In this document: piece after piece, positions 15,063 through 18,530 of the stretch
Numbering within the stretch: position 1 is the first letter of the stretch
How the letters are laid out: each line of letters opens with the position of its first letter
NCBI GenBank assembly: GCA_002840245.1
Contig: PHAA01000001.1
Span: 1 to 64,000 of the forward strand
Direction of reading: 5' to 3'
Length of the DNA: 64,000 bases
Source: Firmicutes bacterium HGW-Firmicutes-15
GTDB taxonomy: Bacteria > Bacillota > Syntrophomonadia > Syntrophomonadales > Syntrophomonadaceae
Made by a program: the position numbers and the translations under genes
The notes under the pieces: generated by a model
What the model was told of the DNA's origin: nothing
Databases searched by the model: none
What the model saw: only the letters and a program-made list of their open reading frames with translations

Positions 15063-16043
15063 TCAAATTGGGCTTGAGTTTTTATGGTTGATTACCTTAT
15101 CCGCAAACTCTTCCGCCAGTTCCAGAATCTCCTCTTGGCGCGGTAGAAACTGAATCCATTCCGCAGGTATACCGCCTAAACCATAAGCTATCCCGGCCAG
15201 CCCTCCAACTACCGCAGCCGTTGTGTCTGTATCCCAACCCAGATTGACTGCCTCCAGCACCGTGTCCTGGTAGTTGTCATTCCTGAGCAAGCACCACAAA
15301 GCCGCTTCCAGGGTATGGATGACATATCCGTCCGAGTTGATTTCGGCTTCCGGTAGTTCATCTATTTTTCCGGACAATATACGGGTAAAGTGCTGCAGCT
15401 CTCCCGGCACCATTCCCGGCAGTTTTGTCAGCTCCTGGGTATGGCACAGGCTCCGATAGGCTTGCTGCGGCGTTGCACCTGCCAGCAATTCCCGCACCAT
15501 CATGGTATACAGGCAGCAGGCCACCTTACTCCGGAGATGTCCATGGGTAATGCCTGACATCAAATGTATCCCTGCCGCCATGGTGGTATCGTCTTCCTCA
15601 GCCAGGTAAATGGCGGCCGGCAATATTCTCATCAAGGCACCGTTGCCGTTGTCGGTTTCATTATTGGGGCCGGCTTTTTCGGCCGGTATCCCAGTTCTCA
15701 TCCGTTCCATGGCCTCGGTGGTAGCATTGCCAACATCGAAGGCGTAACCGGTCGGTGTCCAATAACCATCTTCATACCATTTTAGAAACCTGGCTCCTGC
15801 ATCAGCGGGATCAATTTCATGTCTACAGATACTTTCAACTAGGCATAATGTAAGGGAAGAATCATCTGACCAATATCCAGGCGGCAGCTTAAATGACCCC
15901 CACCCTTCCATCCCGGTGACCGGTCTTTGCCGCCTCAACTCCCGGGAAGCAAATTGCACCGGCAATCCCAGCGCATCCCCTACCACTACCCCGATAATGC
16001 CCCCCATGATTTTCTGTTTTTGCATTCTAAGCCCTCCAGGCAA
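15063..16043 (-). CDS. ADP-ribosylglycohydrolase family protein
   Basis: GGIIGVVVGDALGLPVQF, WSDDSSLTLC, GWDTDTTAAVVGGLAG motifs. Confidence 0.92.
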   Translation of the reverse strand: MPGGLRMQKQKIMGGIIGVVVGDALGLPVQFASRELRRQRPVTGMEGWGSFKLPPGYWSDDSSLTLCLVESICRHEIDPADAGARFLKWYEDGYWTPTGYAFDVGNATTEAMERMRTGIPAEKAGPNNETDNGNGALMRILPAAIYLAEEDDTTMAAGIHLMSGITHGHLRSKVACCLYTMMVRELLAGATPQQAYRSLCHTQELTKLPGMVPGELQHFTRILSGKIDELPEAEINSDGYVIHTLEAALWCLLRNDNYQDTVLEAVNLGWDTDTTAAVVGGLAGIAYGLGGIPAEWIQFLPRQEEILELAEEFADKVINHKNSSPI

Positions 16044-16132: not shown

Positions 16133-16162
16133 TAAAAAAGCAGGCCTATTCAGCCTGCGTAA
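16133..16162 (-). terminator. Rho-independent terminator downstream of agrD-like gene
   Basis: Minus strand GCAGGCTGAATAGGCCTGCTTTTTT. Confidence 0.75.
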
Positions 16163-16196: not shown

Positions 16197-16325
16197 CTAG
16201 TCTCTTTTTTTCGGCGGTTCCGGTTGATAGTTAAATACTGGACAACCTAACGCACTACCTACTGCAACGAATGTGAGAATAGTTATTAGCAAAGAACATG
16301 TAATCGCTTTAACTTTGCTTAACAT
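16197..16325 (-). CDS. agrD: AgrD-like cyclic autoinducer pre-peptide (absent from ORF track)
   Basis: Direct translation MLSKVKAITCSLLITILTFVAVGSALGCPVFNYQPEPPKKRD*; amphipathic leader, small residues, Cys + aromatic core, YQPxxPK-type tail; overlaps agrB stop. Confidence 0.88.
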   Translation of the reverse strand: MLSKVKAITCSLLITILTFVAVGSALGCPVFNYQPEPPKKRD

Positions 16326-16957
16326 TTGAGCACCCCCTCTCGCTTAAATTTTGCCGCTAGTATATCGAAAAGCTGGTCCCATAAATGAATATAGGCCTGC
16401 CCAGCTGGCAACAAGGTGATATTCTGCCAGAACAGACCCAATAGCAGTGCTATAGCAACCAGTTTTTCTCCCATAATATAACTGCTAATCAAGCTTATTA
16501 GCAAAAGCAAAAACAAAACCCAATATGACTTTTGCTTCCTCTTTCTTATTATTGGTTTATCTATAATTGGATTGATTAGATTGTCGACGGGAACATAATA
16601 GTGAATAATTAATATTGCCAGTATGGCAAGAAAGGTAATATATACAGGTAAATGGATAACAGGAATGAATCTGCATATGTAAGCTAATAAAATAATGTGC
16701 GAAAGGCTGACTATCGTACAACGAAAATAGGACTGGCAGTGAGCTCCCCCCGAATATCTCCGATATAGTGCTGTCGAGCAAATCAACGCCAGGGTTTCTT
16801 TGCTCATTCCCAGCAGGAAAGCGACCGCCATAATAACAAATATCTGTAATAATCCCCCCAGTGATATCTCCAGACCATAACGTATCTCATCCTCATATAA
16901 AGACTTATTGGCGTTTTCAGCCATCAAATGAGCTATTCTCCTGGCCAGCAAATTCAT
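16319..16957 (-). CDS. agrB: AgrB-like accessory gene regulator membrane peptidase
   Basis: 212 aa; YRRYSGGAHCQSYFRC (His/Cys catalytic region) in a polytopic protein. Confidence 0.93.
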   Translation of the reverse strand: MNLLARRIAHLMAENANKSLYEDEIRYGLEISLGGLLQIFVIMAVAFLLGMSKETLALICSTALYRRYSGGAHCQSYFRCTIVSLSHIILLAYICRFIPVIHLPVYITFLAILAILIIHYYVPVDNLINPIIDKPIIRKRKQKSYWVLFLLLLISLISSYIMGEKLVAIALLLGLFWQNITLLPAGQAYIHLWDQLFDILAAKFKREGVLKC

Positions 16958-18317
16958 ATAAGTCCCCCTTTTCCAGCTTTCTCGGGAAATATACTGAAAA
17001 GTTCACCATATGTTTATCATTGTTGCTGATATCTAAGCGTCCCCCGTATTTTTGGGCTAAATTATGACAAATATGCAGGCCCAGTCCTAAATGCTCCCCC
17101 TTCTTGGTGCTATAACCTTTTCGCAATATTTTTTCTTTTATATCATCTTCAATATATCCATAATTAGACACCTTGAAAATATAGTGTTCAGCATTGGAGC
17201 CTATATATACCATTACCAGCCTCTGGTCAGTATCCAGTGGCATCACTGCATCAAAAGCATTATTAATCAAATTACCTAGAATATTATTTAATTCATAGGT
17301 CGACACCTTCAAGCTGTCGATCGGCGTGTCCACCTCTACTTTAAATGTAATATCGTTAGTCCTGGCAATACCTGATTTAATATAGAATAAGGCGGTTAAC
17401 CCGGGACTCCCGGTAGTGATAAACTCATTCGACAGGATATTTCCACCCATAAGTTCACTCAAATACTCCTGCACTTCCTGCTTATATCCCAGCTGGTTAA
17501 AACCATAAATGGTCTGCAGGTGGTTAATTATATCGTGTCTTTCACTGCGTATAGCGGTATATAATTCGTCTAGAGTTTCAATATATATAGCCTGCATATG
17601 ATATTGACTTTCTTTTTGGGTTAATTCAACCAACTGAATTATTAATAGTGCCATTGCAATCAAACCCAATATAAGAACCGTAGTCGAAATTGCTCCCATT
17701 AGCGGAAGTGCCAACCCGTGGAAAAAGCTAAATCCCTTATTAATAACCGAGAAACTAAAAATCATTTGAATAATAATAACTATTAATATTGTGACTACTA
17801 AAAATGCGGTGGTTCTCGTTCGTTTGCTCTCATAAAAAACAGAAGTCTCACTTATCGTTTCCTGAAAATTAAACAGATAAAATTTGAACCTAATACATAA
17901 ATAAATAATAATTATTGTCATTACTATTTGCGGTAACGGAACAAATACTTTTATTAATGGATTAGTGCTTGCTACGACATCTGGGCCAAACCATTCAATG
18001 ATAATAAGAGTAAAAACTAGCTCTCCCAATACCAATACTATTACTCCAAAAATAGTAGCAACAATCGCTTTGAGCAAACTAAAATTCAATAAAATTGTCA
18101 CTGAAATAAGCAAAAAAAGTATTTGAATGTAAAAACTGATGTCATAGGGCAAATAAGATCTTAATAAGACCCCCAACACTGCATAGCTCAGTGCAATAAT
18201 AACGAGCTTTTTCATCGAAGGTCTTATATTTACCAAGAGCAGGCCCAGCCATGGCATTAGAAAACCAGCAATAAAGTTATGCAAAAACGTTATCCAGTGC
18301 ATTGTGGTATTATTCAC
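16917..18317 (-). CDS. AgrC-like sensor histidine kinase (multi-TM, GHKL)
   Basis: N-terminal ~6-7 TM; SERHDIINHLQTIYGF; NNILGNLINNAFDA; KGEHLGLGLHICHNLAQKYGG. Confidence 0.88.
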   Translation of the reverse strand: MNNTTMHWITFLHNFIAGFLMPWLGLLLVNIRPSMKKLVIIALSYAVLGVLLRSYLPYDISFYIQILFLLISVTILLNFSLLKAIVATIFGVIVLVLGELVFTLIIIEWFGPDVVASTNPLIKVFVPLPQIVMTIIIIYLCIRFKFYLFNFQETISETSVFYESKRTRTTAFLVVTILIVIIIQMIFSFSVINKGFSFFHGLALPLMGAISTTVLILGLIAMALLIIQLVELTQKESQYHMQAIYIETLDELYTAIRSERHDIINHLQTIYGFNQLGYKQEVQEYLSELMGGNILSNEFITTGSPGLTALFYIKSGIARTNDITFKVEVDTPIDSLKVSTYELNNILGNLINNAFDAVMPLDTDQRLVMVYIGSNAEHYIFKVSNYGYIEDDIKEKILRKGYSTKKGEHLGLGLHICHNLAQKYGGRLDISNNDKHMVNFSVYFPRKLEKGDLYEFAGQENSSFDG

Positions 18318-18488: not shown

Positions 18489-18530
18489 ATGCGGCCAAAA
18501 ATAACAGGGCCCAGCAAGCCCTGCATTAGT
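18489..18530 (-). terminator. Terminator downstream of cheB
   Basis: Minus strand GCAGGGCTTGCTGGGCCCTGTTATTTTT. Confidence 0.6.

Follow-up and report, generated by a model that had tools for sequence, protein, structure and literature searches.

Does the group of three ORFs at 16197-18317, on the minus strand of the window (i.e., the whole 64,000-nucleotide stretch of DNA that was analysed), encode an Agr-type peptide signalling system and, if it does, which peptide would be made and which regulator would receive the signal? The archetype of these systems is agrBDCA of Staphylococcus aureus. The locus shares with it an AgrB of the same family, an AgrD with a Cys-based ring and a Pro-containing tail, and an AgrC-type kinase, whereas it has no linked AgrA and its genes follow the order C-B-D. 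Taken as a whole, the locus is with high probability a real Agr-type cassette of an AgrA-less lineage, in which a CPVFN signal would act through AgrC on an unlinked regulator. The features are as follows.

16917..18317, minus strand: agrC, 466-aa sensor histidine kinase with a GTG start; predicted peptide receptor.
16319..16957, minus strand: agrB, 212-aa membrane protease predicted to cut and cyclise AgrD; Pfam AgrB.
16197..16325, minus strand: agrD, 42-aa propeptide MLSKVKAITCSLLITILTFVAVGSALGCPVFNYQPEPPKKRD; NCBIfam TIGR04223.
16230..16244, minus strand: agrD codons 28-32, encoding CPVFN, the five-residue thiolactone ring as predicted from the orthologue and paralogue alignment and the Clostridium thermocellum precedent.
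16200..16229, minus strand: agrD codons 33-42, recognition tail at the C-terminus (YQPEPPKKRD), which AgrB would cut off.
16140..16158, minus strand: intrinsic-terminator-like hairpin followed by T6, from scan and fold; end of the predicted operon.
18504..18524, minus strand: terminator-like hairpin behind the cheB-like gene that lies upstream of the cassette, from scan.

The ORFs overlap by 41 nt for agrC/agrB (16917-16957) and by 7 nt for agrB/agrD (16319-16325), as given in a preliminary description of this DNA. G-rich Shine-Dalgarno-like stretches lie 5' of agrD (GAGAGGGGGTGCTCAA-ATG) and of agrB (AAAAGGGGGACTTAT-ATG). A 7-bp stem followed by T6 is found at 16158-16140, i.e., about 40 nt past the agrD stop, with a computed folding energy of -13 kcal/mol. 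A hairpin with T6 is thus present where a strong terminator had been proposed; however, the scan gave 9 terminator-like sites where 4.6 would be expected, which makes this hairpin by itself weak evidence. With hairpins after both agrD and the cheB-like gene, the cassette looks like a transcription unit of its own, i.e., a predicted operon. The next gene downstream (15063-16043, minus strand) belongs to the ADP-ribosylglycohydrolase family (262 bits); no gene of this family was seen at the matching place downstream of the cassette in the related genome G006.

The preliminary description had named the cluster AgrC-AgrB-AgrD, and this is borne out by the AgrB and AgrD models and by the kinase domains of AgrC. 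In the Pfam search that it had proposed as a check, AgrB reaches 115.8 bits with PF04647, for which the cut-off is 23. His73, Cys74 and Cys80 are invariant in the aligned AgrB orthologues; from their position and general knowledge of the family, we take His73 and Cys80 to be the catalytic pair. AgrB gave no phage match and has no solved relative among the structures. AgrC has about six transmembrane segments predicted from hydropathy, followed by a SPOB_a dimerisation/His domain (46.9 bits) and a GHKL ATPase (HATPase_c_5, 49.5 bits). The profile of the AgrC family matches the kinase module of S. aureus AgrC (6e52) with an E-value of 7.5e-10 over profile positions 233-424. His261, presumably the phospho-acceptor by position and general family knowledge, and the N-box Asn349 are kept in all 8 aligned orthologues; AgrC thus probably works as a kinase on an unlinked partner.

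The cassette is present in 13 of the 63 genomes of the class and in the Syntrophomonas MAG UBA9860 (L092), i.e., 14 in total. With the AgrB profile, 12 of the 63 genomes score above 200 bits; the next one, G040, reaches 163 bits and its agrB is apparently frameshifted. A search for related loci seeded with the closer AgrB set found three Syntrophomonas loci and one Clostridioides difficile locus. In the AgrB tree, the 12 cassette AgrBs that are complete enough to be included form one clade (support 100/97). The lineage covers several genera in two families of one order (the window's own family and another), and it is patchy: 2 of the 7 genomes of the window's own genus carry it. The compared genomes are mostly draft MAGs, so any gene absence is provisional. 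The named relatives with the cassette are Syntrophomonas MAGs, and the host, previously suggested to be a syntrophic fatty-acid degrader, is indeed a Syntrophomonas relative. Flanking genes are shared by three genomes from two genera: a ComM-type gene before the cassette and holin-like, TatA-like and metH-like genes after it (the holin being confirmed by Pfam, the others named by eye from the start of their sequences).

Is the 42-aa ORF a gene? A check against AgrD models had been suggested: AgrD reaches 23.1 bits with NCBIfam TIGR04223, i.e., only 4 bits above the cut-off of 19, and has no Pfam match; the same model is matched by 9 of 9 aligned AgrD orthologues. Loss of the short ORF in relatives, which would have argued against the proposal, was not observed: all 14 cassettes have a 41-48 aa ORF directly after agrB, ending with [GC]CP, three variable residues and YQPExP. 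Between the window and G006, dN/dS is 0.29 (NG86) or 0.50 (YN00) for agrD, similar to agrB (0.28 and 0.52, respectively). This conservation and the agrB-like dN/dS lead to the conclusion that, on comparative grounds, the agrD ORF is a maintained gene. At the codon level, the pattern CP-x3-YQPE occurs once in the 64 kb, exactly at agrD, and in none of 100 shuffles; since it was picked after the family had been seen, it illustrates the case but does not test it independently. Independent evidence for the cassette comes from the Pfam AgrB score, the NCBIfam AgrD score and the conservation of the small ORF in related cassettes.

It might be supposed that this ORF encodes a small lipoprotein, since a positively charged start and a hydrophobic segment (8-26) are followed, in the window and G006, by A-L-G-C, which before Pro resembles a weak lipobox. 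This is extremely improbable: the other orthologues have QACC, GPCC, SICC or QVCC at this place, whereas YQPExP in the tail does not change; moreover, the ORF is invariably located behind agrB and is recognised by TIGR04223.

The window genome contains four further agr loci, which are useful for the prediction of the ring. In all of them AgrC is split into two genes.

L006:4900-6238, contig C51: split-AgrC agr locus.
L007:3485-4871, contig C49: split-AgrC agr locus.
L008:4989-6310, contig C41: split-AgrC agr locus.
L009:5111-6462, contig C45: split-AgrC agr locus.

The first ORF (157-183 aa, 4-5 membrane segments) matches the membrane part of the fused AgrC of the window, and the second (281-298 aa, 2 membrane segments and a kinase domain) its kinase part. 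A split AgrC is also found in L122 of genome G002.

In the alignment of AgrD orthologues, Leu13, Cys28, Pro29, Tyr33, Gln34, Pro35, Glu36 and Pro38 are invariant and positions 30-32 are variable. Cys28, previously proposed as the ring nucleophile, likely has this function. The end of the ring had been placed around Tyr33 (CPVFNY or GCPVFNY), and the sequence does contain Cys28 as well as an aromatic residue at position 33. Nevertheless, a six-residue CPVFNY ring is very unlikely: Tyr33 is invariant together with the QPExP that follows it, i.e., it is the first residue of the YQPExP tail; the paralogous AgrDs of the four other systems all show a Cys and four residues (CWFHF, CWYLW, CWFIT and CMWTM) ahead of Y-[QE]-P; and in C. 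thermocellum AgrD, whose mature pentapeptide was identified by LC-MS/MS, cleavage occurs ahead of the equivalent Tyr (PMC5322536). A five-residue thiolactone ring is also the likely natural signal of Clostridium perfringens (PMC7492741). From these orthologue and paralogue patterns and the two five-residue precedents, the predicted ring is CPVFN, a five-residue thiolactone very probably ending at Asn32. The computed [M+H]+ values are 561.249 for CPVFN, 618.270 for GCPVFN and 724.312 for CPVFNY. Within the genus the rings differ (CPVFN vs. CPYWN), as one would expect if each species had its own signal, and the YQPExP tail stays the same.

The mechanism can then be proposed as follows: (i) AgrB would remove the YQPEPPKKRD tail of AgrD; (ii) it would join the Asn32 carboxyl to the Cys28 thiol, a closure that we infer from what is known of the family, giving the thiolactone CPVFN; (iii) the peptide would be exported after removal of the leader, possibly carrying at least one additional residue at its N-terminus; (iv) once accumulated, it would bind the membrane part of AgrC and change autophosphorylation at His261; (v) the phosphate would pass to a response regulator encoded away from the cassette.

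The last step raises the question of AgrA. An AgrB protease with its His and Cys, an AgrD propeptide and a polytopic AgrC receptor kinase are all present, as in Agr systems; the linked AgrA of the full B-D-C-A type is not, and the LytTR matches of the window genome all lie elsewhere. Inspection of the flanks of all 14 cassettes showed no LytTR gene. Since AgrA-less loci of acetogenic clostridia are still called Agr, this absence excludes the four-gene type and not Agr in the wider sense. As no regulator is linked to the cassette, the phosphate of AgrC would go to one encoded elsewhere, and AgrC probably signals through such an unlinked partner. Candidates for this partner are Spo0A and the four AgrA paralogues, both being choices within the preferred reading.

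The window genome has five LytTR matches, i.e., four intact AgrA-type regulators and one 90-aa remnant. AgrC might use these paralogues of the other agr loci, thus forming one shared quorum circuit, and the His region of the window AgrC (HDIINHLQTIYGFNQLG) is similar to its counterpart in the C51 kinase (HDFVNHLQTVYGLMQLG). This can be considered only as a tentative possibility: each of the four paralogues has a kinase of its own next to it, and genomes G044 (91% complete) and G006 (75% complete) have the cassette and no LytTR match, which suggests that some members of the lineage can do without one, although unlinked partners may be missed in incomplete genomes. In G071 (99% complete) the sole LytTR match adjoins its own AgrC-like kinase.

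As for Spo0A, AgrC would be an orphan kinase phosphorylating it directly, the cassette then feeding sporulation. Orphan kinases of Clostridium acetobutylicum act directly on Spo0A according to a reference cited in PMC8748961, and a Spo0A match exists in every genome of the set that has the cassette. However, Spo0A is found in 60 of the 63 class genomes; being near-universal, its co-occurrence with the cassette is uninformative, and we regard this partner as rather doubtful. A broader proposal, namely a stable AgrA-independent lineage of syntrophic Clostridia whose Cys-Pro cyclic pentapeptide would act on a non-LytTR regulator (e.g., directly on Spo0A), is speculative though plausible enough to be kept in mind. 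If true, quorum sensing would be wired to sporulation or to syntrophic metabolism without the usual AgrA.

A LytTR response regulator without adjacent kinase (L099:2047-2850 and its relatives) is conserved in 47 of the 63 class genomes and has, where examined, a radical-SAM-like gene on one side and an AAA ATPase gene on the other. As a candidate for the missing AgrA it was discarded, since it occurs in 8 of 13 cassette genomes vs. 39 of the 50 remaining ones (Fisher p = 0.29) and is absent from the whole genus of the window.

Agr itself is known, and AgrA-less agr loci have already been described in acetogenic clostridia (PMC8748961), as have loci of pathogenic Clostridia that consist of agrB and agrD only (PMC8534292, PMC10602386). 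Among the closest known systems is Agr system 1 of Clostridium autoethanogenum (agrD1-agrC1-agrB1), a three-gene locus which, as here, has AgrB, AgrC and AgrD and no agrA; systems of this type also have a five-residue ring proper to each species and a conserved P-x-x-P tail (PMC8748961). Its gene order is D-C-B, against C-B-D here (B-D-C in G044), and it is followed by a spo0E-like gene, whereas the present ring starts with Cys-Pro. Judged from the ORF lists of the cassettes, agrD is the only consistent small neighbour; in G044 the gene downstream of the cassette is a PAP2. The C. thermocellum AgrD (Clo1313_2818) has in common with ours a cut before Tyr, giving a five-residue ring and the removal of a Tyr-led tail; its ring is however a serine lactone, not a cysteine thiolactone, and its gene lies outside any agr operon (PMC5322536). 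In Agr1 of C. difficile (agrB1-agrD1), the same reasoning gives the five-residue ring CPWII, also starting with Cys-Pro (PMC8534292, PMC10602386). As here no agrA is linked to it, and agrC is not linked either; the AgrD1 tail starts with HQPK instead of YQPE. A kinship based on the Cys-Pro rings was ruled out, AgrB1 being the weakest match to the lineage profile (62.9 bits) and lying on a long branch outside the clade. The lineage thus differs from the known AgrA-less loci by its gene order, its fixed Cys-Pro ring start and its phyletic range.

Syntrophic fatty-acid oxidisers live at the thermodynamic limit beside methanogens. In the open-access literature, no paper was found pairing « Syntrophomonas » with « AgrD », or « Syntrophomonas wolfei » with « accessory gene regulator ». 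A named candidate, the CPVFN thiolactone at m/z 561.249, allows the coordination of syntrophs with cell density to be asked directly. The partner of AgrC would moreover reveal how an Agr receptor works without a linked AgrA, in parallel with the receptor question raised by C. difficile Agr1.

Several agr remnants must also be noticed. On contig C51, at L124:1361-1951, a second copy of the CWFHF AgrD lies beside the 90-aa LytTR remnant, with no agrB of its own and 3 kb from the intact agr locus of this contig. An AgrD-like relic (MLQLSPCPVFCHQPKLPDSLRE) without leader segment is found at the edge of contig C73 (L062:92-142, minus strand). In genome G032 (L105:1617-2296), a truncated LytTR gene has an adjacent AgrD with a CLFHW ring, and neither agrB nor agrC is nearby.
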